Shown in pieces: positions 1,635 through 59,339 of a stretch of DNA of 64,000 nucleotides. Within the stretch, counting starts at the first letter, position 1; every line of letters starts with the position of its first letter. The notes under the pieces were generated by a model. The model was not told the DNA's origin and did not search any database. It worked only from the letters and a program-made list of their open reading frames with translations. The stretch lies in contig JANSYQ010000001.1 in NCBI GenBank assembly GCA_024742305.1, positions 62,001 to 126,000 on the forward strand, read 5' to 3'. The stretch is from a bacterium. GTDB taxonomy: Bacteria > Bacteroidota > Bacteroidia > Flavobacteriales_D > Crocinitomicaceae. The position numbers and the translations under genes were made by a program.

Positions 1635-2279
1635 TTAGTCAATAATGAGATACGTTCCTGGAGTTGCTGTAAAAGCGTTACGCCGGGCACTTGGCAAGTT
1701 TAGAAACTCAGCCACTCGAATTTTTGTAATGGACGAACCAGATGTTAGTGTTCTGTATTTCTCAGGAAAGTCACGAATCCAAACTTTCAAATCTCTTTTG
1801 TAGATTTCGTAATCTTCGCTGTCATTACCGGTCGGATTCCATTCTGGCAAAGGTCTCGGTGCCACCAACTCAGACATACTTGAAACATCGATACCATTCA
1901 GACTCACTGTGAGAGCACTCAACGGTAATAACATGACATTGTACTTATCCTTAAAAAGAAAAGAAACGGTATCCGTTTGATGACGCGTACTTTCGAACTC
2001 AACAATATTGAACAAGTCTTGATTGAAAAAGTCGTTATAATTCACATCGCATTGAATGCATTTCTTGGGACTCACGATAAAAGAACTAGTGAAATAATTC
2101 GCTAGAGCTTGATATTCGCCTGGAGACTCATTTTCAAATGCTTGAATTTCCAATCCGTTGTAATATCGAAGAACAGATCTGTTTAAGGTAAGGTCACTTT
2201 TTGCGTCGCTTTGTGTAAAGGCTGGACTATTGCATAATACTGTAGAGAGCATCAGCAATAACGTAGTCGTCATTCTCAT
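1635..2279 (-). CDS. Hypothetical exported protein, 214 aa
   Basis: The ATG at 2279 begins a signal peptide (about residues 1-22, cleavage near AFTQ). A second Met at codon 3 is an alternative start. The mature part is mixed polar sequence with no family I recognise. A Cys pair in KKCIQCD (near residue 77) could form a disulfide or bind metal. The reading frame ends 20 bases upstream of the large secreted protein that begins at 1614 on the same strand, so the two may be co-transcribed. The C-terminus ends ATPGTYLIID and has no T9SS sorting domain. Probably periplasmic or secreted. Confidence 0.7.
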   Translation of the reverse strand: MRMTTTLLLMLSTVLCNSPAFTQSDAKSDLTLNRSVLRYYNGLEIQAFENESPGEYQALANYFTSSFIVSPKKCIQCDVNYNDFFNQDLFNIVEFESTRHQTDTVSFLFKDKYNVMLLPLSALTVSLNGIDVSSMSELVAPRPLPEWNPTGNDSEDYEIYKRDLKVWIRDFPEKYRTLTSGSSITKIRVAEFLNLPSARRNAFTATPGTYLIID

Positions 2280-2656
2280 GTGTAGTTAGTCAATTCGTTC
2301 GTAGTTGGACGTGAATATAACCACTTATAAAAGAAGGTTTTAAGGTTTGCTAAACTGATTTAGTTGTTAAAATTCTGACAAAAAATGCGTTTGTTGAGTG
2401 TTCTGTATGTTTGAGTTAACATCGCCCAAGCTCAATTGAAAGTTTATAGATATATCGTATTGGTAACGTGTTGATTATACCACGTATTCCTATTCCATTG
2501 TGAAATAATTTTCCTGAAACATCTACACTTACAACTATTTCAAATGTAATCTCTATTGCTCTCGAGCATCTCCGTCAACAATGAAAAATTAACCAAGCGC
2601 AAAAAAATCTCTACCTTACTTCCAACCTTTCGAAAAAGGCCGTGTCTTTTAAATAG
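2280..2656. other. Divergent intergenic region (377 bp)
   Basis: This gap separates a minus-strand exported protein from the plus-strand ECF sigma gene. I see no ORF, tRNA or strong hairpin in it. Its right end holds a candidate ECF-type promoter, annotated separately. The remainder is AT-rich and presumably carries the divergent promoter for the 2279 gene, which I could not pin down. Confidence 0.6.
2624..2650 (+). promoter_or_regulatory. Candidate ECF-type autoregulatory promoter
   Basis: AACCTTT (2624-2630) is followed, 13 bases later, by GTCTTTT (2644-2650). This AAC-type -35 plus CGTC/GTCT-type -10 arrangement is typical of ECF sigma promoters, and ECF genes often drive themselves. The -10 ends only 6 bases before the first ATG (2657). 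The transcript would therefore be nearly leaderless, or translation would start at the in-frame ATG at 2675. Confidence 0.45.
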
Positions 2657-3202
2657 ATGAAAGAAATAGTTCACATGCACCGCGATCTGATCGAAGCCGC
2701 CAAAAAAGGCGAACGCTACGCTCAGAAATCGCTCTTCGACCTGTACAGTAAGGCGCTGTATAACATTGGAATGAGGATGCTTGGAAATGCTGACGATGCT
2801 GCAGACGTCACCCAAGAAGTATTCCTCGAGATATTCAAAAAGTTAGACAGCTTCGAGTACAAGTCCACCTTTGGTGCTTGGGCAAAAAAAATCATGGTCA
2901 ATCGGTCCATTAATCATTTGCAGCGCCGACCGATGCACTACGATTTGCCCGAGGTAGAAAAAGCGCATTTTGAACCGGAAGATGATCAAGAAGATGTGGC
3001 TGCATTGATGATGCAATTGAACACTTCCTTATTGGAGCTTCCCGAAGGTTGCCGCGTAGTGTTCACGCTGTACTACTTTGAGGGATTGCGACACGAGGAA
3101 ATTGCCTCCCATTTAAACATCTCGACATCTACCACAAAATCTCAGCTGAGTAGAGCGAAACAGCTACTCAGAGCATCTATCAAACAAAAAATTGAGGCAT
3201 GA
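2657..3202 (+). CDS. RNA polymerase ECF sigma factor
   Basis: This 181-residue protein has the two-domain ECF layout. Sigma region 2 spans about residues 14-90, with a DAADVTQEVFLEIFKKL helix for core and -10 contacts. Sigma region 4 spans about 115-175, with LPEGCRVVFTLYYFEGLRHEEIA and a helix-turn-helix ending TKSQLSRAKQLLR. It directs RNA polymerase to a small regulon. Its stop overlaps the next start (ATGA, 3199-3202), so it is translationally coupled to a membrane VWA protein that probably acts as its anti-sigma partner. The likely autoregulatory promoter lies directly upstream. If transcription starts near 2656, the Met at codon 7 (2675) is an equally plausible start. The family call is secure; the signal it responds to is unknown. 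Confidence 0.93.
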   Translation: MKEIVHMHRDLIEAAKKGERYAQKSLFDLYSKALYNIGMRMLGNADDAADVTQEVFLEIFKKLDSFEYKSTFGAWAKKIMVNRSINHLQRRPMHYDLPEVEKAHFEPEDDQEDVAALMMQLNTSLLELPEGCRVVFTLYYFEGLRHEEIASHLNISTSTTKSQLSRAKQLLRASIKQKIEA

Positions 3203-5229
3203 ATCGAAAGGAATATAATCAGGAATACGATGTTTTTGAAACGCCCAACACACTTTGGGAGAACATCGAAAAGCAATTGGACGAACCGCGCAAAAAACGA
3301 CGCATTGGCTGGTGGATATCATCCGTTGGAGTAGCCGCCGCAGCCGTATTGGTTTCTTTACTCGTTTGGAATCAAAATGAAGAAGGAAGACTCTCAGAAA
3401 AGAAAGCTCCCATGATGGCCAAAGCGGAAACAGAGCAAAACAGGGATGAAAGCGCTCCAACTAAAGATAACGGCAATGATGCAGCGTCAGCTGAGTTTGA
3501 CTCAAAGGATAAGAACTTGGGAAATGCCAAGGAGTCAGAATTTAAAAAAGTAGAATCTCTAGCTAGTGTACAGCAGAAACAATCTGCAAGCAAAAGTCAA
3601 AGTGTGGTTTATGAATGGGGGGCAGCCGTAGGTAATTCACAAGTGTATTACAATATATCTGCTGCGGACGTTTCTCATTCAACCGTTACTTCCGGAAATG
3701 GAATTGGTTGGTCAAATGGATTAACAACGAATTTTAGCGGAAGAATCAACTCCTCAGCAGATAGAAGTGTAATGCAAGGATACGCTCCCGATTTTGATTT
3801 AGACACCGAACCCTATCACGGTTCAACCTATGATCAAATCAACGAAAATCAATTCATTTCGACCAAAAAGGAAGCGCAATCTACCTTCAGTATTGATGTC
3901 GACGGTGCCTCTTACAGTGATGTTCGCGGAATGATTAAGCGTGGCGTATTGCCAAACCCTGATGCTGTGCGCATAGAGGAATTGATCAACTATTTCCCTT
4001 ACAATTATGACGAACCGAAAGGCGATCATCCCTTCGCGTTCCACACCGAGGTAATCGACTGTCCGTGGAATGCCGAACATCAACTAATGAAAATCGGAAT
4101 CAAGGGTGAGTCCATCGAAAAAGAGGCCTTACCACCGAACAATTTGGTCTTCCTCATGGATGTATCCGGCTCCATGACTAGTCCCGAAAAACTCGGTCTG
4201 ATTAAAAAAGGATTCAGCCTCCTTGTTCAGGAGATGAGGGAAGAAGATCGCGTCGCGATTTGCGTGTATGCCGGAGCAGCAGGATTGGTTCTTGAACCGA
4301 CTTCCGGTGCCAACAAGGACAAGATTATGGATGCCATCAATCGCTTGGAAGCAGGAGGAAGTACGGCAGGAGGAGAAGGAATTGAACTCGCCTATGCAAC
4401 GGCTCAGAAATACTTCAATTCAGAAGGAAATAACCGTGTCATTCTTGCAACGGATGGAGATTTCAACGTGGGCGTATCAAACGACGATGCCTTGGTAAAG
4501 TTGATCGAACGCAAGCGCGAATCGGGAGTAGCGTTGACCGTTCTTGGCGTTGGGCACGACAATTTCCAATCTTCGAAAATGGAGAAAATAGCCAACAACG
4601 GTAACGGAAATTTCTCCTACATCGATAACATCTTGGAAGCAAAGAAAGTATTGGTGACGGAGATGGGCGCAACGTTAAAAACTATCGCGAAAGACGTGAA
4701 ACTTCAACTGGACTTCAATCCGCAAAAAGTAGAGAAATACCGATTGATTGGATATGAAAACCGTGTCTTGGCAAACAAAGATTTCGATAACGACGCGGTG
4801 GATGCCGGAGAGTTGGGCGCGGGACATACCGTTACCGCCATTTATGAAATCGTTCCGGTTCAATCGAATTCTAATACCAAGGACCGCGATGTGATTGGTG
4901 AGTTGGAGAATATTATTGAAGGAAAAAGTACAGGCGATGATGAATTGGCGGTACTGAAATTCCGATATAAGCAACCACAAGGTTCTACCAGTCAACTGAT
5001 CACAACATCCATCAGTGACGTCGGCTCCATTTGTAGTACTGACATGCGATTTATCACAGCTGTCGTAGAATTCGGTCTATTATTGCGAAATTCTGAATTC
5101 AAAGGCACAGCTAACTTCGAGCGTATTCTCAAGAATGCCCGCCTCGGATTGGGGCGCGATCCTTACGGTTATCGTTCAGAGTTCATCCAGCTCGTGCAAA
5201 AAACACAGCGACTGAAAAGCGCCGATTAG
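3199..5229 (+). CDS. Membrane-anchored VWA (YfbK-family) protein with anti-sigma-like N-terminus
   Basis: A 676-residue protein. Residues 1-35 are a short cytoplasmic segment (TPNTLWENIEKQL, then KKRR), like the sigma-binding tail of small anti-sigma factors. Residues 36-58 form one membrane helix. Residues about 60-200 are a Ser/Gln/Asn-rich periplasmic linker. Residues about 205-300 match the YfbK N-terminal domain (TFSIDVDGASYSDVR). Residues about 312-490 are a von Willebrand A domain with an intact MIDAS (DVSGS near 320) and a distal ATDGDFN motif. The C-terminal domain common in YfbK proteins follows (about 500-670). The start overlaps the ECF sigma stop by 4 bases. I infer a transmembrane sensor that holds the sigma factor and reads a periplasmic ligand through the metal-binding VWA domain. 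The VWA family call is firm; the anti-sigma role is inference. Confidence 0.9.
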   Translation: MNRKEYNQEYDVFETPNTLWENIEKQLDEPRKKRRIGWWISSVGVAAAAVLVSLLVWNQNEEGRLSEKKAPMMAKAETEQNRDESAPTKDNGNDAASAEFDSKDKNLGNAKESEFKKVESLASVQQKQSASKSQSVVYEWGAAVGNSQVYYNISAADVSHSTVTSGNGIGWSNGLTTNFSGRINSSADRSVMQGYAPDFDLDTEPYHGSTYDQINENQFISTKKEAQSTFSIDVDGASYSDVRGMIKRGVLPNPDAVRIEELINYFPYNYDEPKGDHPFAFHTEVIDCPWNAEHQLMKIGIKGESIEKEALPPNNLVFLMDVSGSMTSPEKLGLIKKGFSLLVQEMREEDRVAICVYAGAAGLVLEPTSGANKDKIMDAINRLEAGGSTAGGEGIELAYATAQKYFNSEGNNRVILATDGDFNVGVSNDDALVKLIERKRESGVALTVLGVGHDNFQSSKMEKIANNGNGNFSYIDNILEAKKVLVTEMGATLKTIAKDVKLQLDFNPQKVEKYRLIGYENRVLANKDFDNDAVDAGELGAGHTVTAIYEIVPVQSNSNTKDRDVIGELENIIEGKSTGDDELAVLKFRYKQPQGSTSQLITTSISDVGSICSTDMRFITAVVEFGLLLRNSEFKGTANFERILKNARLGLGRDPYGYRSEFIQLVQKTQRLKSAD

Positions 5230-5244
5230 AAGGAATCATAGTCC

Positions 5245-5303
5245 AAGTAGAAGGTGGAAGGCTGAAAGCAAAAAGACATTTCACTTTCAACCTTCTACTT
5301 TTT
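5245..5303 (+). terminator. Candidate hairpin terminator after the sigma/VWA operon
   Basis: AAGTAGAAGGT (5245-5255) pairs with ACCTTCTACTT (5290-5300). An inner TGAAAG/CTTTCA pair (5263-5268 with 5284-5289) extends the stem, and a short T run follows. It lies 15 bases past the VWA stop. The ACCTTCTACC arm is repeated at 5330-5339, so an alternative pairing exists. Confidence 0.5.
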
Positions 5304-5407
5304 AATTTCAGTTCTCGGACATTCACTTCACCTTCTACCAAATCGGTTTACCACTGTTTATCTGTCATTTAGACTCAAAATCGTTAGTAATGCATGCTCC
5401 GATTTCG

Positions 5408-5415
5408 TATTTTTG
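5408..5415 (+). promoter_or_regulatory. Candidate -7 box (TATTTTTG) of the amidase gene
   Basis: This matches the Bacteroidota -7 consensus TAnnTTTG, 22 bases before the ATG at 5438. I see no clear TTG -33 element at the usual 17-23 base spacing. Confidence 0.4.
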
Positions 5416-5437
5416 ACGTAATCAAAAACTACTACGA

Positions 5438-8356
5438 ATGCGGTCAATTCTATTTCTTGCCCTATTATTTTTGAGCTTCACGTCAAACGCGCAAGTAACG
5501 TTTCAGTCCATTTATGCAGATCATCCGCTATTGCCTCACGGAGTATTGGAAGGAGTAGCATGGACGAACACCCGCATGCAGCATTTGCAGAATCAAGCGC
5601 CTTCCTGCTCGGGATATCCAAATGCATACGGGATTATGGGATTGCATGACAACGGTAAAAGCTACTTCATTGAAAACGGTCAGGTAGTGGCCAACTTATC
5701 TGGTATTTCTATCGCACAGCAGAAAAGCGATCCACAACTTCAGGTCGAAGCTTATGCAATTGCACTGGAGTCCATCTTAGCACAAACCAACAACAGCCTT
5801 GACCCTTCCAATATTGCCGCTTCATTGATGCAGCTCAGTGAAATCCCAGACACAGGGATTGTAAACATTCTCGCGCGCGAAATGCAAGTGTATGAGGTGC
5901 TTCGTTTTATGAAAGACCCAAAACAAGCAGAAACATTTGGATTCACTGCACATCATTATAACCTCGCTACTGTTTTTGGAGAAGATCATTACGACATTCT
6001 AAGTGCCAAGAAAATTACGTTAACAGAAACATCCATCACCAATGAAAATGGTGCCGAGTTTGTCATCAACGCAAACGCCACCCTGCAATACGGACCTGCC
6101 ATTTGGAATCCTGCCCCATCTTGTAACTTCAGTTCTAGAAACGGAGTCGCAGTTTCGGCCATAACCATCCATACCATTCAAGGATCGTACGCAGGAGCCA
6201 TTTCTTGGTCGCAAAACTGTAATTCGAACGTCTCATTCCATTATGTCATTCGTTCTTCGGACGGACAAGTGACTCAAATGGTTTTGGAGGAAGATAAAGG
6301 CTGGCACGTAGGAAGCGAAAATCCTTATACGATTGGATACGAGCACGAGGGCTACGTGAACGACCCTAGCTGGTACACTGACGCCATGTACAACTCCTCT
6401 TCGGATCTTTCCAAGGACATCATCAACAGTGGATATGGAATTCCGAGCTTACGCACGTATTTTGGACCTTCATCGACAACCGTGGACGTTTTAGGCGGAT
6501 GTACGAAAATCAAAGGGCATCAACACTATCCCAATCAAACACATACGGATCCGGGAATCAACTGGGATTGGGAGCGCTACTACCGATTGATTAATGATAA
6601 TCCAACGTACACAACTGTCACGAATACGAGCAGCACTCTATACGATTCAGGTGGATCAACAGGGCCTTACTCAGATGATGAACGTCTGTTTTGGCTCATT
6701 CAACCGCCCAACACCGATTACATCACCTTGGATTTTAACGTTTTTGATATCGAATTGGATTGGGACTACTTGTTCGTGTACGATGGTGACTCCATCAATG
6801 ATCCCCTGATTGGGCAATTCACGGGGACAACCATTCCGCAGATTACCTCTTCGGGAGGCTCTTTGCTACTGGAGTTCCGAAGTGATTGTGCCACGACCAC
6901 TCCTGGTTGGGAGGCGAGTTATACATCGGTTCCGTTAGACAATGTTCCTCCGCAATCATCCGTTGTAGCTGGAAACCTATGGCAAACCGACGACTTCACA
7001 GTCGATTTTGTTGATACTGACAATCAATCCGGCGTGAGTAATCGCTATTATCTTGTTTCAGAGAAAGAAATTGCTGAAAATGCACCAAAAAGTAAAGGAT
7101 CCTACGGGTTTGTCAATGAATCTTTTGCAGATGGTTCCGCACTTTGGACCAATCAAACAGGAAGCTTTACGATAAACTCAGGAGAGTACGTTTTGGACGA
7201 TACGACAGAGCAAAATTCTAATGCGTACACGCTCGTCGAACAGAATGCCAATCAAAGCTATTTGTATAGCTGGAACCAAATGATTGCTGGAACTGCCTCT
7301 AATCAGCGTGCAGGTTTGCATTTCTTTTGTGACGATGCCACGCTCCCGAATCGTGGAAATTCTTATTTCGTATACCTCAGAGCTTCTGATTTGGTGCAGA
7401 TTTACTCCGTGGAGAACGATGTTTTCACCTTGCAAGAAAACATTCCGTTCACCATTGATACGGATGTCATGTACGAATGTAAAGTGCAGTACGACCCCTC
7501 CACTGGTTGGATTCGCGTATTTGTAAATGACATGTTCGTGGGTGAATGGCAAGATCAAACTCCATTGACAAGTGGAAATGCCATCTCATTGCGTTCAGGA
7601 GGTTGCGCCATTCATTTTGACGATGTTCGCGTCTACCAGTCACGTGGATCTCAAGTAGCAATTACCGCTGGATTTGGAGAGCTACTATCTATTGAAAGCG
7701 AAGGCGCGGTGCCTACCGGCTATGTTTACGCTACTGCCATCGACTCAACTGATAATTGGTCCACGATAGATGAAGAAACGTACTTATTGGATTTCTCTCT
7801 GCCGGAATTGCTTAGCTTGAATGACGGTGTAGGAAATGATATCGATACGGTTACTACCGCCACGTTGGAGGCAAATTGGTCAGCGCAGGACATTCACTCG
7901 GATATTGCCAATTACGAAGTAGCTATTGGAACGCTCCCGAACTTAGACGATGTAGTCGGTTGGACCGCAAATGGACTAACAGAAACCTTCTCGCAGCTTA
8001 TCGGAAGTCCGGTCTACAATGAAGTGTATCATATTTCCATTCGTGTAACCAATGGCGCAGGGTTGGTAGAAACCTTTATCTCTGACGGACAACGATATAT
8101 TGATGATTTGGGCATTGAGACACAGGACTGGAATTCCGTGAATGTGTATCCAAACCCTTCCTCCGACATCATTCAAATCGAAGGTTTGAAGAAAGAATTT
8201 ACCGTTGTTTTGTTCGATGCGGCGGGCAAGAAATGCTTGGAACAAACTATTTCCTCGGGAGAACCGGTTTCCATTGCTTCATTAGCTTCAGGAACGTATC
8301 AGTTGGTGATTCAATCAGGTAGTGAGTTTGTGGTGAGGAAACTTATCAAGAACTAA
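5438..8356 (+). CDS. Secreted N-acetylmuramoyl-L-alanine amidase with CUB and T9SS sorting domains
   Basis: A 972-residue exported protein with a signal peptide (1-18). An Amidase_2-type zinc amidase spans about 235-385. Candidate zinc ligands are His in TIHTIQG (near 243), and His plus Asp in GHQHYPNQTHTDPG (near 360-373); HYVIRSSDGQ and WHVGSENPYTIG are typical family segments. Amidases of this type cut the link between muramic acid and the peptide stem. A CUB-like beta sandwich follows (about 400-495; YDSGG, WDYLFVYDGDS, GSLLLEFRSD). After that comes a golvesin/xanthan-lyase-like segment (near 510-540) and a concanavalin-like beta sandwich (about 555-740). The protein ends with a type A T9SS sorting domain (VNVYPNPSSD, about 895-972). 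Likely secreted by T9SS and attached to the surface, for prey or cell-wall digestion or remodelling. Its stop overlaps the convergent gene by 4 bases. Confidence 0.88.
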   Translation: MRSILFLALLFLSFTSNAQVTFQSIYADHPLLPHGVLEGVAWTNTRMQHLQNQAPSCSGYPNAYGIMGLHDNGKSYFIENGQVVANLSGISIAQQKSDPQLQVEAYAIALESILAQTNNSLDPSNIAASLMQLSEIPDTGIVNILAREMQVYEVLRFMKDPKQAETFGFTAHHYNLATVFGEDHYDILSAKKITLTETSITNENGAEFVINANATLQYGPAIWNPAPSCNFSSRNGVAVSAITIHTIQGSYAGAISWSQNCNSNVSFHYVIRSSDGQVTQMVLEEDKGWHVGSENPYTIGYEHEGYVNDPSWYTDAMYNSSSDLSKDIINSGYGIPSLRTYFGPSSTTVDVLGGCTKIKGHQHYPNQTHTDPGINWDWERYYRLINDNPTYTTVTNTSSTLYDSGGSTGPYSDDERLFWLIQPPNTDYITLDFNVFDIELDWDYLFVYDGDSINDPLIGQFTGTTIPQITSSGGSLLLEFRSDCATTTPGWEASYTSVPLDNVPPQSSVVAGNLWQTDDFTVDFVDTDNQSGVSNRYYLVSEKEIAENAPKSKGSYGFVNESFADGSALWTNQTGSFTINSGEYVLDDTTEQNSNAYTLVEQNANQSYLYSWNQMIAGTASNQRAGLHFFCDDATLPNRGNSYFVYLRASDLVQIYSVENDVFTLQENIPFTIDTDVMYECKVQYDPSTGWIRVFVNDMFVGEWQDQTPLTSGNAISLRSGGCAIHFDDVRVYQSRGSQVAITAGFGELLSIESEGAVPTGYVYATAIDSTDNWSTIDEETYLLDFSLPELLSLNDGVGNDIDTVTTATLEANWSAQDIHSDIANYEVAIGTLPNLDDVVGWTANGLTETFSQLIGSPVYNEVYHISIRVTNGAGLVETFISDGQRYIDDLGIETQDWNSVNVYPNPSSDIIQIEGLKKEFTVVLFDAAGKKCLEQTISSGEPVSIASLASGTYQLVIQSGSEFVVRKLIKN

Positions 8357-8970
8357 TCACCTTCTTTCATATCCGAAAACTGAACGTTCTTTACCCTTAG
8401 AATGCTTCTATTCGAATGACTGAGTTCATCTAGTGTGTACATGCGCAGGAACGCAGAGCCAAACAAGGAAGGTTGATACTCAATTGTAAAGCTCACCTTA
8501 ATGTTTGAAGTAGGATTGTAAATAATCTCATCCAAAGTATAGATCGTATCCGGCAAAACTGGTATGGGCGCTTGAAATTTCTTCTCTACGGTAGAATCGG
8601 CAACCGTCCACTGAACTATCTCCTGTATTCTTTGATACGTTCCGTCGTGATGTATAATTCGGTCCCCAAGGTAAAATAAACTTGATGAGTGCTGAGGATA
8701 AACAACATAAGTTTGCCCGGCATAGAGAATTAATGAGTCTTCGAATGTTACCTCATAGTATTCATAGGTTTCTCCTATGTTCTCGGTCTCAGAAATCTTT
8801 TTTCTTGCTCGCAGATTGTCGTAAAATGGCAACAAAACTTCTAGAAAAGCGGAGTCATTTAATGTGGTATCAAACAAAGCTGAATAATAATCGTCAAAAG
8901 TCTTTTCTTCCTGCGAGAAGACAGTTCCTTGATATAAAAGAGCGTTCGCTACGACGAAGAATGTTTTCAT
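8353..8970 (-). CDS. Hypothetical exported protein, 205 aa
   Basis: I place the start at the ATG at 8970, because that Met begins a proper signal peptide (MKTFFVVANALLYQGTVFSQ). The upstream in-frame Met at 9024 would add 18 polar residues in front of it and would sit on a terminator. The mature part is rich in acidic and aromatic residues, with beta-prone segments. I recognise no family. It is convergent with the amidase gene, with a 4-base overlap of the 3' ends. The terminator of rplY sits directly upstream, so it must have its own promoter. Confidence 0.65.
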   Translation of the reverse strand: MKTFFVVANALLYQGTVFSQEEKTFDDYYSALFDTTLNDSAFLEVLLPFYDNLRARKKISETENIGETYEYYEVTFEDSLILYAGQTYVVYPQHSSSLFYLGDRIIHHDGTYQRIQEIVQWTVADSTVEKKFQAPIPVLPDTIYTLDEIIYNPTSNIKVSFTIEYQPSLFGSAFLRMYTLDELSHSNRSILRVKNVQFSDMKEGD

Positions 8971-9022
8971 ACGCTGTTTTTCATACGGTACATTTTTCTT
9001 GTAGAATTGTTCATCAGAAAAC

Positions 9023-9055
9023 AAAAAACCCTGACGCTCTCATGAGGCCAGGGTT
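9023..9055 (-). terminator. Rho-independent terminator of prs-rplY
   Basis: Read on the minus strand, AACCCTG (9055-9049) pairs with CAGGGTT (9033-9027) and is followed by a run of T. The loop contains the palindrome CTCATGAG. It begins about 23 bases past the rplY stop. Confidence 0.85.
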
Positions 9056-9077
9056 CGTATTTCGAGTAAGATACTTC

Positions 9078-9701
9078 TTATTCTTCAGAAGCTCCTTCTG
9101 CTGGTGCATCATCACCACCTTCTGCTGCTTCTTCCTCTTCTTCTTCGTCTGCAACCGCACCACGAGCCATTTTCACAGCAAGTACTACCGCATTCGCAGG
9201 CTCAAGGAATGTTAAACCGTCAGAGTTCAAATCAGAGATACGAATCGACTGTCCGATACGCAAGTTTCCGATTTCCACTGTAATTGCTTCTGGCAAGTCT
9301 CCTGGAAGACCAACCACGCGCAACTTACGGTACGGCTGACGCAATTTACCACCATTCATAACCCCGATTGGAGATCCTGTGTAGCGCAATGGCAATTGCA
9401 ACTTCACCGGCTTATCATCGCTCAACTCCAAGAAATCAATGTGAAGTGGCTTATCTTTTACTGGATGCATATCCAAATCTTGGATGATCGCTACTTTCTT
9501 CGTTCCATCGATGTCCAATTCAACTTGGTAAACATCTGGCGAGAAAATCAACTTTTCTACATCTACTGACCTTACAGAAAAGTGAGTTTGCTCACCTAAA
9601 CCGTAAAGCACACAAGGAACCTGTCCAGCATTTCTCAATGCCTTAGCGTCCTTCTTCCCTACGTTCGCTCTTAACGAACCGCTCAATTGCGCTTTTTTCA
9701 T
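9078..9701 (-). CDS. rplY: 50S ribosomal protein L25 / Ctc family
   Basis: This 207-residue protein is of the long Ctc/TL5 type. An N-terminal L25 domain (about 1-90) binds 5S rRNA (GSLRANVGKKDAKALRNAG, VPCVLYG). A C-terminal TL5 beta domain follows (about 95-185; PLRYTGSPIGVMNGGKLRQ). The last 25 residues form a strongly acidic Glu/Asp/Ala tail. It follows prs with a 12-base gap on the same strand. The prs-rplY pairing is a common bacterial arrangement, and the two are very likely co-transcribed up to the terminator just downstream. Confidence 0.96.
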   Translation of the reverse strand: MKKAQLSGSLRANVGKKDAKALRNAGQVPCVLYGLGEQTHFSVRSVDVEKLIFSPDVYQVELDIDGTKKVAIIQDLDMHPVKDKPLHIDFLELSDDKPVKLQLPLRYTGSPIGVMNGGKLRQPYRKLRVVGLPGDLPEAITVEIGNLRIGQSIRISDLNSDGLTFLEPANAVVLAVKMARGAVADEEEEEEAAEGGDDAPAEGASEE

Positions 9702-9713
9702 TTGTTTGTGTAT

Positions 9714-10646
9714 TTAAATTATAAAATGTGAACTTATTGATTCGTCATTCACCGCTCGATGAATAACGTCTCCGAACAATTCTGCTACAGAGAGTACTCG
9801 GATTTTATCGCTTTGCTGTTTCAAAGGAATCGTATCCGTTACGATTAATTCTGTGATGCGCGATTTTTCGATACGCTCATACGCCGGACCTGAAAGAACA
9901 GCATGCGTACAGAAGGCTCGAACACTTTTGGCACCTTTCTCCATGAAGAGATCCGCGGCTGTGGTCAACGTTCCCGCCGTATCAATCATGTCGTCTACCA
10001 ATACAACGTCTTTACCTTCTACATCTCCAATCACCGTCATTTCTGCAATTTCATTTGCCTTCTTTCGGTGTTTGTGACAGATTGCCAAACCTACATCTAG
10101 GCGCTTCGCATAAGAGTTCGCTCGTTTTGCTCCTCCTGCATCTGGCGCCGCCATAATTAAGTTACCCGTATTGAGCTTTTCAATTTCTTCATTGAAGATG
10201 GTTGAACCGAACAAGTGATCTACAGGCACTTCGAAGAATCCCTGAATTTGATCTGCGTGTAAATCCATCGTCATGATACGATCTACACCTGCAGCCATCA
10301 TCATGTTCGCCACCAATTTGGCACCAATGGCAACACGAGGCTTGTCTTTACGATCTTGACGTGCAAATCCAAAGTATGGAACTACCACGCAGATTTTGTA
10401 AGCCGATGCGCGACGTGCAGCATCCACCAAAAGTAAAAGCTCAAGAAGGTTATCAGCAGGTGGATTTGTCGATTGTACGATAAACACTTTTTGACCGCGA
10501 ACCGTCTCTTCGAAAGAGATAGTAAACTCGCCGTCAGAGAATTGCGTTTTACTTACTTCACCCAACTCAGTACCGTAAGCAGCCGCTATTTTTTCGGCTA
10601 AATCTTTGGTACCGCTTCCGGCAAATATTTTCACTCCTGCAGACAT
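9714..10646 (-). CDS. prs: Ribose-phosphate pyrophosphokinase
   Basis: A 310-residue, full-length PRPP synthetase. It converts ribose 5-phosphate and ATP into PRPP for purine, pyrimidine, His, Trp and NAD synthesis in the cytoplasm. Visible motifs are the N-terminal FAGSGTKDLAEKIA, the metal/ATP segment MTMDLHADQIQGFFEVPVDHL, the flexible catalytic-loop Lys region and the PRPP-binding loop VVLVDDMIDTAGTL (near residue 215). It is the first gene of the prs-rplY operon. A TATCTTCG -7-like box lies 19 bases upstream (10665-10672). Confidence 0.97.
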   Translation of the reverse strand: MSAGVKIFAGSGTKDLAEKIAAAYGTELGEVSKTQFSDGEFTISFEETVRGQKVFIVQSTNPPADNLLELLLLVDAARRASAYKICVVVPYFGFARQDRKDKPRVAIGAKLVANMMMAAGVDRIMTMDLHADQIQGFFEVPVDHLFGSTIFNEEIEKLNTGNLIMAAPDAGGAKRANSYAKRLDVGLAICHKHRKKANEIAEMTVIGDVEGKDVVLVDDMIDTAGTLTTAADLFMEKGAKSVRAFCTHAVLSGPAYERIEKSRITELIVTDTIPLKQQSDKIRVLSVAELFGDVIHRAVNDESISSHFII

Positions 10647-54696: not shown

Positions 54697-56070
54697 ATGC
54701 CCCGAAAAACAACCGCGCCTGCTAAAACCACTACCAAATCAGCAAAATCAAAAAAAAAGAAGGTATTTGTACTGGATACCTCGGTCCTACTGCACGACCA
54801 TCAATCCATAACCAATTTCGATAAGCACGATGTTGCCATTCCGATTACCGTTTTGGAAGAATTGGACAAGTTCAAAATTGGAAACGACACCAAGAACTTT
54901 TCTGCTCGTGAAGTCATTCGCTTTATCGACAAATTATCCAACGGCAACAGTTTGCAAGATTGGATTCCACTGGGGAAAGGAAAAGGGAAATTTAAAGTGA
55001 TTCTCAACGCACAACCGCAGTCTTTTGATGCAGAAGATGTTTTTGCGCGTGGGAAAAACGATCATAAAATTATCAATGCAGCACTGTTTTTAAAGGAGCA
55101 ATTACCCGGCGATGAAGTAACGTTGGTGACAAAGGACATTAACCTACGGATCAAAGGAAAAGCATTGGGCATTATTTCTGAGGATTACGAAACAGGTAAA
55201 GTGTCTCATGACGATACGGAGCCAACAAGCGTTATTACGGTTGAGAATGTTGAATCGGAACAAATACGCCAAATTTTCACGAAAGGATTCATTGATGAAG
55301 ATGGAATTTTGGGCAATCACAAGGCGGCGAATGGCTATTATATCCTAAAAAACGGAAAGTCGTCATCCTTGGCGGTTTACAATCCACACTTGGATCGCAT
55401 TGAACGCATCGAGAAAGAGTTTGTTTACGGAGTGAAACCGAAAAATTCAGAACAAGCGTTTGCTTTGAACGCACTGCGCAACCCTGATATTAAACTCGTC
55501 GCTTTGATGGGCGTTGCAGGAACCGGGAAAACACTTCTAGCCTTGGCATCTGCTCTAGAGCAACAAAAGAAGTTCAACCAAATCATTTTAGCGCGCCCCA
55601 TAGTTCCCTTGTCTAATAAGGAAATTGGATTTTTACCGGGCGACGCAAAAGATAAAATTGGTCCGTACATGGAGCCGCTTTGGGACAACCTCAAGTTCAT
55701 CAAGTCTCAGTTTGGCGAGAACGAACGCAAACGAAAAGCCATTGAAGAGTTAGAAGAGAGCGGAAAATTCGTTATTACGCCCTTAGCTTTCATTAGAGGA
55801 CGTAGCTTGTCGAATATCATGTTCATTATTGATGAGGCCCAAAACTTAACGCCCCACGAGGTAAAAACCATCATTACGCGTGCAGGCGACAACACCAAGA
55901 TTGTCTTCACCGGCGATGTGAATCAAATTGACACACCGTACTTAGATGAAAACAGTAACGGCTTGGCATATCTCGTTGATCGCTTGAAGGGGGAGAAACT
56001 CTTCGCGCACGTAAAGCTGGAGAAAGGTGAGCGCTCTGAATTGGCGAATTTGGCGAATGATTTGCTGTAG
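54697..56070 (+). CDS. PIN-domain/PhoH-like ATPase
   Basis: A 457-residue protein of the PIN-PhoH type. The N-terminal PIN nuclease domain (about 18-150) has VFVLDTSVLLHD with the first catalytic Asp, VLEELDKFK, and later acidic residues in ARGKNDHKI and TKDINLR. The C-terminal PhoH domain (about 245-455) has Walker A MGVAGTGKTLL and Walker B IMFIIDEAQNLTPHE, with TGDVNQID. These proteins are sequence-specific RNA helicases and nucleases in the few cases studied. An N-terminal Lys/Thr/Ala-rich tail precedes the PIN domain. The gene is followed by two hairpins. Confidence 0.93.
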   Translation: MPRKTTAPAKTTTKSAKSKKKKVFVLDTSVLLHDHQSITNFDKHDVAIPITVLEELDKFKIGNDTKNFSAREVIRFIDKLSNGNSLQDWIPLGKGKGKFKVILNAQPQSFDAEDVFARGKNDHKIINAALFLKEQLPGDEVTLVTKDINLRIKGKALGIISEDYETGKVSHDDTEPTSVITVENVESEQIRQIFTKGFIDEDGILGNHKAANGYYILKNGKSSSLAVYNPHLDRIERIEKEFVYGVKPKNSEQAFALNALRNPDIKLVALMGVAGTGKTLLALASALEQQKKFNQIILARPIVPLSNKEIGFLPGDAKDKIGPYMEPLWDNLKFIKSQFGENERKRKAIEELEESGKFVITPLAFIRGRSLSNIMFIIDEAQNLTPHEVKTIITRAGDNTKIVFTGDVNQIDTPYLDENSNGLAYLVDRLKGEKLFAHVKLEKGERSELANLANDLL

Positions 56071-56073
56071 GGG

Positions 56074-56122
56074 CTAGGATGTAAACATTCTAGGAATTTC
56101 ATGTGCATTTATTGGTAAATGC
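56074..56122 (+). terminator. Paired hairpins after phoH
   Basis: CTAGGATGT (56074-56082) pairs with ACATTCTAG (56085-56093), with one G-T pair. GCATTTA (56105-56111) pairs perfectly with TAAATGC (56116-56122). The first lies 4 bases past the phoH-like stop. T tracts are weak, so termination is plausible but not certain. They also mark the left edge of the AT-rich cassette. Confidence 0.45.
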
Positions 56123-56256
56123 GTATTTTGGGTTTACTCGAGCCACTCAACAAACAATTACAACGGATTATAATGGGCTTTTGCTGATTTCATTTTGTTA
56201 TTTGGAGGGAGTAGTTGGTATAGATGAGTTATGCATAAATATACCTAAATCAAAAA

Positions 56257-57087
56257 ATGGCCGATTTAAATTACGCTGATAAACGCATTATTGAAAAGTT
56301 CTTAGGGATGGGGTCAGGTTACGTTCTTGATTTCTCTAATCGAACATTTGAAGAATTTGTTTATGATTCAGTCGGAATCAACATCTACGAAAACAAATAT
56401 GATTTTGAAAGCGGATCTAAAGCTAATAGGTTAAGAGCATTTTTAAAGCTTGAATCAAATCATCGAGTAGGTGTATTAATTGATGCCTTCTGTGAATATT
56501 GGAATAGTCAAGTGGGGCTATATAGTTCCACTTTCGATTCAGCTGATCAGCATTTGTGTGATAAATGCAAACAAATAGCAATCAGATTAAAGCAAGACTC
56601 CGTAATTGACGAAATTGAAGTGATTAAGGAAGATGTTAATGATAAGGACATCACACTCCTAGCAAAATCTATAAGAGAGAGCATAGAAAAAAATGAGCCG
56701 GAAGTAGCTCTAGACAGACTGCACACGTATTGTATGAAATTCTTCAGAAATCTATGCGACAAACATCAAATTGAATATGGTAGTGGGGAATCCCTTAATG
56801 CTATTTTCGGTAAATATGTCAAGTATATTGTCTCAACTGAATATGTTGAATCAAGCATGACCGAAAAAATACTTAAGTATTCTATCAATATTATTGAAGC
56901 TTTTAATGATGTTCGTAACAACAAAAGTCTTGCACATGATAACGCTCTTCTCAATTACAATGAGAGTCTATTGATCTTTAATAACGTTACCAATTCGATA
57001 AAGTTCATATTAACAATAGAGGAAAGAATTGATGCAGAATTACAATCGGAAGATGCTGACGACGATTGGGAAGAATTACCATTTTAG
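56257..57087 (+). CDS. Abortive infection family protein (Abi-C, HEPN-like)
   Basis: A 276-residue soluble protein. The C-terminal half (about 148-255) matches the Abi-C domain: ALDRLHTYCMKFFRNLC, GSGESLNAIFGKYV, FNDVRNNKSLAHDNALLNYNE. The RNNKSLAH stretch (Arg220 to His227) fits the R-x4-6-H motif of HEPN ribonucleases, and an N-terminal helical domain precedes it. Abi-C proteins abort phage infection by killing or arresting the host cell. Base composition is clearly lower in GC than in its neighbours. The gene is followed after 29 bases by a NucS-like nuclease gene in the same direction. Family call is good. RNase activity is inferred from the motif. Confidence 0.85.
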   Translation: MADLNYADKRIIEKFLGMGSGYVLDFSNRTFEEFVYDSVGINIYENKYDFESGSKANRLRAFLKLESNHRVGVLIDAFCEYWNSQVGLYSSTFDSADQHLCDKCKQIAIRLKQDSVIDEIEVIKEDVNDKDITLLAKSIRESIEKNEPEVALDRLHTYCMKFFRNLCDKHQIEYGSGESLNAIFGKYVKYIVSTEYVESSMTEKILKYSINIIEAFNDVRNNKSLAHDNALLNYNESLLIFNNVTNSIKFILTIEERIDAELQSEDADDDWEELPF

Positions 57088-57116
57088 TATATAGAAAAAT
57101 TTATTGAAAGAATAAT

Positions 57117-58784
57117 ATGAAAGAATCGAAAGTACGAGATTTACTAATTAATCAACTCGAAATTTTCGAATCAGGTTTAGAGTTTCTCGATAAAGAAAAG
57201 TATTTACCTAATGTTGAAGGCACAAGAAGCTTCATCGATATACTCGCAAAAGACAGACAAGGCAAATTTGTAATTATTGAAGTTAAACGAGCCAATGCTT
57301 CTTCGCGTCAAGCAATTCACGAGCTACTAAAATACGTTGAAGCGATAAAAGAAAATAAATCTTTAAAAGAGGATGAATTACGTCTAATGGTTGTTTCAAC
57401 GGTTTGGAATGAATTATTGATCCCATTCTCCTCATTCGTGCAAAGAGTTAACCTCGACACTAAGGGCTTTCAAATAGATTTTTTAGCTGATAAAAAGACA
57501 TATAAAGCCATAGAAGTTTCAATCGTTCCGGTTACAGAAAACAGATTAATTAGTAATAGTCATGCCGTACGATATTACTACACCGAAGAATCTTTGAATA
57601 ACGGAATCAAGGAGCATGAAAATTCTTTTGATGTTCTCGGCGTTAGAGATTACGTGTTGTTCGTTTTGGAAGCTCCTGAAAACTATCTTGACATGGTTAA
57701 GGCATCAATAGGTTATTCTAGGGATTTAATGAATGAAAAACTTGGTTCTTATGAAAAGAATAATCAATTCATGTCTAAAATTGATGAGCATTATAACTAT
57801 AAGTTCATGATTTATTCAGGCAACACGTTACTCACGGACCATGAATATTCAGATATACTTTCTAAGAACTATGAATATCCCGAAGTTTTTGATGAAACCA
57901 TGGAAGATGAATCAAGACCAAAACTCGATAAGCTGGAGGAACTAAATGCAATGTTAACGGAATGTGAACCTTTTCCTGATGCAGATTACACTGAAATTGG
58001 CTACCCTGCAAAATTTGAAAATATTCTTGACGAACAAAAATGGAAGATCCGTGATGTTCATCGTTATGGAAGACTAAAAGATAATGAACTACTGAAGGAT
58101 GAGGTATTAGTCAGAGAGTTTAGGGGATCGGCAGGAACAACTAAGCAGAAATACAAATCAGAGTTAGATTTTGACAGTAAGGCTAATATTAATAGGGTCA
58201 TCGATGAAATTGATTTTTGCCTAAGTGATAACATCGTTTGGAAAAATCACATATTGTCAATCATCAATGAACTAAAAAAGGAAACAGCTATTGTTAAATC
58301 TAGTTGTATAATTTCCAACCCTATGAACGTCATATATACGATTCACCTTAGCACAACAAGGCCAAATGGAATTGAATTTTTACCATTGTATGAATTAATC
58401 GTGGAAAAGGAAAATCAACGTGACACTTATTTAGGGTACTTGGGATACAAGAAGAAAAAAGAATTTAGTTTAAATGAAATTTGGGATACTTTTTTTGATG
58501 GTAGTCCAACCATGTTCTTCTATTCTTTAATTTGGGGTGGATACGATGAAAACAATTTGAAAATATGCGAAGAACTTGGATTGGAATATAAAACAATTAA
58601 AATTGTTGAGCGAGATGAGCAGTTCCAGTTTTACAAATTCGAAAACTATACATTCAATAAAGTTGACGAATTGTACCCATTAGGTGAATTGGAACAATTT
58701 ATTGATGAAAATGAGGGGTTTGTGGAAGAAATAAACGATTTGTTTGAAGAGAATCATTTAGGGAACGGAGTATATTCAATTTAA
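57117..58784 (+). CDS. NucS-like PD-(D/E)XK nuclease protein, 555 aa
   Basis: Residues about 1-130 match the NucS/DUF91-type endonuclease core: GTRSFIDILAKDRQGKFVII with Asp41, then EVK (Glu55 and Lys57), and QAIHELLKY with Gln65 and Tyr73. This is the metal-dependent PD-(D/E)XK arrangement with the usual Q...Y helix. The remaining 425 residues are not recognised. They include helical and mixed regions and an acidic C-terminus. Low GC, like the Abi-C gene before it, with which it is almost certainly co-transcribed. I infer a DNA- or RNA-cleaving defence effector or sensor paired with the Abi-C protein. A classical NucS mismatch nuclease is less likely, given the length and partner. Confidence 0.8.
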   Translation: MKESKVRDLLINQLEIFESGLEFLDKEKYLPNVEGTRSFIDILAKDRQGKFVIIEVKRANASSRQAIHELLKYVEAIKENKSLKEDELRLMVVSTVWNELLIPFSSFVQRVNLDTKGFQIDFLADKKTYKAIEVSIVPVTENRLISNSHAVRYYYTEESLNNGIKEHENSFDVLGVRDYVLFVLEAPENYLDMVKASIGYSRDLMNEKLGSYEKNNQFMSKIDEHYNYKFMIYSGNTLLTDHEYSDILSKNYEYPEVFDETMEDESRPKLDKLEELNAMLTECEPFPDADYTEIGYPAKFENILDEQKWKIRDVHRYGRLKDNELLKDEVLVREFRGSAGTTKQKYKSELDFDSKANINRVIDEIDFCLSDNIVWKNHILSIINELKKETAIVKSSCIISNPMNVIYTIHLSTTRPNGIEFLPLYELIVEKENQRDTYLGYLGYKKKKEFSLNEIWDTFFDGSPTMFFYSLIWGGYDENNLKICEELGLEYKTIKIVERDEQFQFYKFENYTFNKVDELYPLGELEQFIDENEGFVEEINDLFEENHLGNGVYSI

Positions 58785-58833
58785 TATGCATAACAAGCTC
58801 TATACTCTACGCCTTAAACGAACTATATTAGAG

Positions 58834-58856
58834 AAAAGGCGCGATAGTATAGCGCC
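58834..58856 (-). terminator. Terminator of the sprA-GNAT transcript
   Basis: On the minus strand GGCGC (58856-58852) pairs with GCGCC (58842-58838), followed by TTTT (58837-58834). It lies 25 bases past the GNAT stop. Confidence 0.7.
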
Positions 58857-58880
58857 GAACCGTTAAACCTGCACCCCAAC

Positions 58881-59339
58881 CTACTTCCCTTCATTTTCAG
58901 GAAAGAACATGCGTCCATTGTACCATTCTTTATCTATCGTGGCTCCTTTGCGTTCGTAGAAAGCGATGGCGTCGGTATTCCAATCCAAGACTTGCCAGTC
59001 CATGCGGGCGCAGTTTCGTTCTTTGGCGATGTTTACCACCGCATCGAAGAGTTTTGATCCAGCTCCGGTACCTCGATAATCGGGTAAAACGTACAAGTCT
59101 TCCAAATACAAAACAGGACCTTTCCAAGTAGAATACGCCATGTAGTACAAGGCAAAACCAATAATACGATCTGATTCTGTTGCTACGAGGGCTTCACATA
59201 CCTTTTTATCAAATAGGTCAGCACCCAACTTTTCTGCGGTATTGACTACTTCATCGGGCTCATTTTCGAAATCGGCAAGACCTTGGATCAATTCCAAAAT
59301 TGCCGTTTCATCGCCGCGTTGTGCATTACGAATTATCAT
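58881..59339 (-). CDS. GNAT family N-acetyltransferase
   Basis: A 152-residue GCN5-related acetyltransferase. The acetyl-CoA motif is VLPDYRGTGAGSKLFDAVV (R/Q-x-x-G-x-G/A). Other strands are IIGFALYYMAYSTWKGPVLYLEDLYV, and DWQVLDWNTDAIAFYERKGA gives the C-terminal substrate side. The layout resembles diamine or thialysine acetyltransferases of the SAT1 type (DWNTDAIAFYERKGA, then WYNGRMFF). The ATG overlaps the sprA stop by one base (TAATG), so expression is coupled to sprA. A role in T9SS is not known. The pair may be simply an operon neighbourhood. Confidence 0.9.
   Translation of the reverse strand: MIIRNAQRGDETAILELIQGLADFENEPDEVVNTAEKLGADLFDKKVCEALVATESDRIIGFALYYMAYSTWKGPVLYLEDLYVLPDYRGTGAGSKLFDAVVNIAKERNCARMDWQVLDWNTDAIAFYERKGATIDKEWYNGRMFFPENEGK

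Follow-up and report, generated by a model that had tools for sequence, protein, structure and literature searches.

Locus layout and base composition

The window analyzed here, a 64,000-nucleotide stretch of a Crocinitomicaceae genome (Bacteroidota; GCA_024742305.1, contig JANSYQ010000001.1, positions 62,001 to 126,000), carries two adjacent forward-strand genes, referred to as gene A (56257..57087; 276 aa) and gene B (57117..58784; 555 aa). Gene A encodes a protein of the Abi_C (PF14355) family with the HEPN-type motif Arg220-Asn221...His227, and gene B encodes an N-terminal NucS-type PD-(D/E)XK nuclease domain followed by a C-terminal part. An initial annotation had described two co-directional genes with a 29-base gap, and the coordinates of the open reading frames (ORFs) bear this out. 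The pair is framed by convergent genes that we take to be phoH (54697-56070, forward strand) and a GNAT gene (58881-59339, reverse strand), with a 1537-aa ORF beyond the latter; the names phoH, GNAT, and sprA are presumptive, having been assigned from the look of the sequences.

Windowed guanine-plus-cytosine (GC) content was 31-36% over the pair versus roughly 39-50% in the flanks. Measured against 34 further ORFs of the window, each 200 aa or longer (mean 43.5%, standard deviation 2.0), the GC contents of gene A (33.8%) and gene B (33.3%) were strongly depressed (z ~ -5), as was GC at third codon positions (z ~ -3), whereas the synonymous-codon usage likelihood of both genes was nothing unusual. 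The low GC suggested by the initial annotation was therefore recovered, including at third positions, but its check on codon bias returned an ordinary codon-usage likelihood. The proposed foreign composition and horizontal arrival are upheld, by a GC content about 5 standard deviations low and by an empty gap at the same site in relatives.

Within the genus, the site between phoH and GNAT varies. In the 12 same-genus genomes for which the gap was fetched, the distance between the last codons of the two genes is 5-150 bases in seven and 0.87-3.2 kb, with other, unrelated ORFs, in five. In the closest relative (G412; phoH 93% and GNAT 88% identical), the gap is 51 bases. The gaps at loci L078-L082 hold either an epimerase-like ORF of ~295 aa or an ORF of 441 aa that is SGNH-like by eye. 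Among 150 same-family genomes, gene A was found in three (its own, G461 at 59% identity, and G489 as a weak partial match) and gene B in two (its own and, in pieces, G432). Because the gap is empty or otherwise filled in the genus and both genes are rare in the family, the pair looks like a recent acquisition.

Gene A belongs to a portable HEPN-type family

Gene A matched Pfam Abi_C over residues 183-252 (E 5.1e-11, 43 bits against a cut-off of 24). In an alignment of 25 rows, one of them a fragment not covering the motif, R220, N221, H227, and H156 were kept in 24/24 covering rows (the window protein and 23 others), and the R-x6-H motif was also read in L006 and L105 by six-frame search, giving 26/26 covering sequences; the Abi_C assignment and the HEPN-type Arg220/His227 motif of the initial annotation are thus corroborated. 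Relatives reach 59% identity within Bacteroidota, where 19 of 395 phylum genomes, its own included, hold a match, and ~45% on plasmids, where 128 records match at E<=1e-3 and 49 at E<=1e-10. Published studies describe Abi_C among the cargo of Tn7-like transposons and also on plasmids from sewage (PMC8649781, PMC9600348).

At 9 of 25 loci, A adjoins or sits inside a run of restriction-modification (R-M; 7/25) or AbiE (2/25) genes. This count describes the loci that were read and gives no rate, since the plasmid loci (14 of the 128 records) were chosen from the match lists so as to be diverse. The neighbors comprise a DNA methyltransferase (L005), BglII-type R-M (L006), Eco57I-type R-M (L007 and L104), type ISP (L105), type I HsdM (L098), and AbiE (L111 and L094), while in a Bacteroidota genome (L103, around 2031-10493) A lies between mod and res of a type III R-M operon, together with a 496-aa ORF. 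Gene A presents as a portable HEPN-type protein that turns up next to AbiE and a range of unrelated restriction types, a setting that fits a back-up suicide role, and it is probably a HEPN growth-arrest RNase. Temperate phages may be carriers as well: an Abi_C gene lies on two viral contigs (L051 and L052), close to ORFs that resemble phage genes by eye.

Gene B joins a NucS-type nuclease domain to a C-terminal module

The nuclease domain of gene B (approximately residues 1-135) matched Pfam NucS_C above the curated cut-off (E 4e-10), and D41, E55, and K57 were present in 20/20 aligned family members. For the ~415 residues of the C-terminal part (approximately 138-555), a structural search gave no confident match. 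Both statements agree with the initial annotation, which had named a NucS-like PD-(D/E)XK nuclease with Asp41, Glu55, and Lys57 and left the remainder unrecognized. The full NucS architecture is absent from B: against the NucS equivalog it scored 46.6 bits (cut-off 216), and the match began at profile position 129 of 250 and protein residue 2. Window B gave no match to Pfam SduA_C up to E 1, and one of the 20 family members did (E 0.003).

The B family has members in Bacteroidota, Bacillota, Actinomycetota, and Pseudomonadota. Ten neighboring proteins, chosen for their defense-like look, were profiled, revealing a fusion of an N6 methylase with specificity domains (L031), SMEK and OLD proteins (L043), GmrSD ~3 kb away (L045), and AbiEii (L037). 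In L095 (genome G432, 4355-5898), the B relative is split over two frames in this assembly, and the genes upstream of it, named by eye, are an HsdS-like ORF and one for an AAA ATPase. Our literature search found no paper on this nuclease-plus-C-terminal-module family. By analogy with Shedu, B is probably a one-protein nuclease-plus-sensor, with the C-terminal part as a possible sensor. The family stands out as a candidate for phage assays.

Genes A and B are inherited separately at the loci examined

The co-occurrence of the two families was investigated at 25 A loci and 26 B loci, the latter comprising 20 from a two-sequence-profile scan of genome contigs, five plasmid loci, and the G432 locus. 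In six-frame searches with family hidden Markov models (E up to 1), A was found at 0/26 B loci and B at 0/25 A loci, with complete positive controls (B at 26/26 B loci, A at 25/25 A loci, and both in the window). Searches of called ORFs gave the same absence of pairing, the ORF caller having skipped A at two of the 25 A loci (L006 and L105). The independent number of B loci is below 26, as some of them are short (less than 4 kb in L041 and L042) and the copies in L004 and L040 are near-identical. The absence of pairing also extends to the 150 same-family genomes, in which the other clear match to A (G461) and the other match to B (G432) are separate genomes. At the loci examined, homologues of A and B are never neighbors and the two genes are inherited separately; the two-gene anti-phage system proposed in the initial annotation is not supported, because its homologues do not co-occur there.

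Integron arrays around relatives of gene B

Relatives of gene B sit in integron arrays at four of the 26 loci. In Vibrio (L049), B is one cassette of a large attC-repeat array; in L042, attC sites flank B on both sides; in L048, attC sites accompany an integrase fragment (62.6 bits); and on a Pseudoalteromonas plasmid (L010), an attC site lies just before B, the integron integrase is read in two ORFs (4418-5341 and 5874-5972, one of which scores 291 bits where the cut-off is 265), and insertion sequence genes follow. L010, L048, and L049 group together in a tree of 23 B proteins, far from L042, so integron capture of the family probably happened at least twice; the placement of window B in this tree is weakly supported (81/85). 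Anti-phage cassettes in integrons, both in Vibrio and in mobile integrons, are documented in PMC12409362 (which cites Darracq et al. 2025, Kieffer et al. 2025, and Getz et al. 2025).

Within the window, the sequence GTTATGC (56228..56234, forward strand), a possible 5' cassette junction, stands 22 bases before the start of A and is the exact reverse complement of GCATAAC (58788-58794), while a candidate attC-like imperfect palindrome with hairpin potential, GCATAAC...GTTAAAC (58788..58868, forward strand), begins 3 bases past the B stop. If the unit is an integron-type cassette, these end motifs would place the insertion with A and B at 56229..58862 on the forward strand, with boundaries between G at 56228 and TTATGC from 56229 and between G at 58862 and TTAAAC from 58863.

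Origin of the insertion

These features raise the possibility, compatible with either functional reading of the pair, that A and B arrived as a two-gene cassette dropped outside an integron at an attG-like site, with the integrase since gone, a scenario that we regard as conceivable though doubtful. The ends are cassette-like: the 5' end is the complement of R'' next to the final stop codon, the boundary is GTT, and 81 bases run from the start of GCATAAC to the end of GTTAAAC. The textbook boundary is GTTRRRY, from which GTTATGC differs at one base. When 617 gene runs from 41 sources were scanned for the signature, nine matches came back, namely this locus, six in real arrays (L042 and L049), and two that are chance-like; the GTTATGC/GCATAAC/GTTAAAC signature, however, had been seen before it was put to this test. 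The bottom-strand hairpin was equalled by 4/500 shuffles with the cassette's own 5' end rejoined (z -3.35) and by 3/200 with flanks included; as integrated it was just mildly better than shuffles (z -1.80), 23/500 of which folded equally well. The four B relatives in arrays are consistent with such an arrival, as is the described integration of cassettes into attG sites of genomes (PMC12901181, citing Loot et al. 2024).

The covariance models argue against it. With default filters, the attC models gave no match in the window up to E 10. Model R1, trained on sites from L010, L042, L048, and L049 and hence scoring those loci partly by construction, reached 7.4 bits when run unfiltered on the 3' site (E 1.1, third of 7) and found no attC site in the own genome, and model R2, trained without L042, gave 5.0 bits on the 3' site (E 7.9) although in a held-out control it found three of four L042 sites at E <0.01. 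No integron integrase (TIGR02249) exceeded the cut-off in the own genome or in 200 family genomes; 14 control genomes likewise held none above it, leaving no positive control there, and the profile does pass on L010. The fuller proposal, an orphan two-gene integron cassette with a HEPN-type RNase and a NucS-type nuclease of a new one-protein defense family, settled at an attG-like site of a Bacteroidota lineage where no integron integrase turned up, is one that we consider unlikely.

Functional interpretation

The interpretation that we favor, with reasonable though far from complete confidence, is that of two independent mobile defense-type genes in one insertion, A causing growth arrest by cutting RNA and B acting as a one-protein nuclease with a sensing or gating module. 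A single insertion of ~2.6-2.8 kb between phoH and GNAT would have brought both genes, their adjacency reflecting chance co-capture of two defense genes. A would most likely cut RNA and stop growth once an infection, or the failure of a neighboring restriction system, has been sensed, while the NucS-type DNA nuclease domain of B would most likely be sensed or gated by the C-terminal module in the manner of Shedu. What the data show directly is the gene content, the conserved motifs, the foreign base composition, the site left empty in relatives, inheritance apart at the loci examined, and, at some loci, varied defense genes next to both families; RNase and DNase activity, a phage-defense role, a sensor function, and functional independence are inferred. 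Several observations weigh against this interpretation: no R-M or AbiE neighbor was recognized at 16 of 25 A loci, where only some neighbors were profiled; ordinary genes stand beside some B relatives, and no enrichment rate is claimed for B because its profiled neighbors were hand-picked; the flanks searched were at most 8 kb for B and 4-6 kb for A, and many end at contig ends; and A and B, 29 bases apart, may be co-transcribed and hence cooperate here even if their relatives do not.

Such cooperation is the substance of the original proposal, in which B senses and cuts DNA and A aborts infection as one anti-phage system. The same strand, the short gap, the common low GC, the single insertion, and the defense genes adjoining both families at some loci all speak for it, but the absence of A from 26 B loci and of B from 25 A loci under complete controls, and the different genomes that hold the remaining same-family matches, make it improbable. 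The last reading assigns no phage-defense role, with A as a toxin and B as its antitoxin or regulator, or with B as a DNA-repair enzyme. In its favor, toxins are known among Abi_C and HEPN proteins, and NucS proper acts in DNA repair. Each of A and B nevertheless occurs without the other as a neighbor, so B is not a needed antitoxin of A, and for repair, B lacks the NucS N-terminal region and falls far below the equivalog cut-off; we hold this reading to be very improbable. What had been one claim about a two-part system is thus replaced by two smaller, testable claims, and B emerges as a nuclease-plus-module family spanning four phyla that integrons have probably taken up at least twice. Should the window insert prove to be an integron cassette, it would represent integron defense cargo settled in a genome without an integron; transient integrases could then seed genomes that had at no time contained an integron with defense genes, and B would represent an unrecognized family of integron-borne defense nucleases.

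Comparison with known systems

Gene A agrees with Abi_C proteins annotated as "abortive infection family protein" (PF14355) in its above-cut-off domain and R-x6-H motif, and its near-full-length relatives (~29-59% identity) occur on plasmids, viral contigs, and chromosomes. It differs in its neighbor, a NucS-like nuclease, where other loci show R-M or AbiE genes or, in the rest, neither recognized. Gene B shares the nuclease domain fold and catalytic residues of the NucS/EndoMS mismatch endonuclease (2vld, 5gke), but its domain is N-terminal, lacks the NucS N-terminal domain, and precedes the unmatched C-terminal module. In contrast to Shedu (SduA), window B has no SduA_C match, and its domain order and extra module differ. 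Like integron-borne anti-phage cassettes, B has relatives within arrays, while in the window the attC site is only a candidate, with no integrase above the cut-off.
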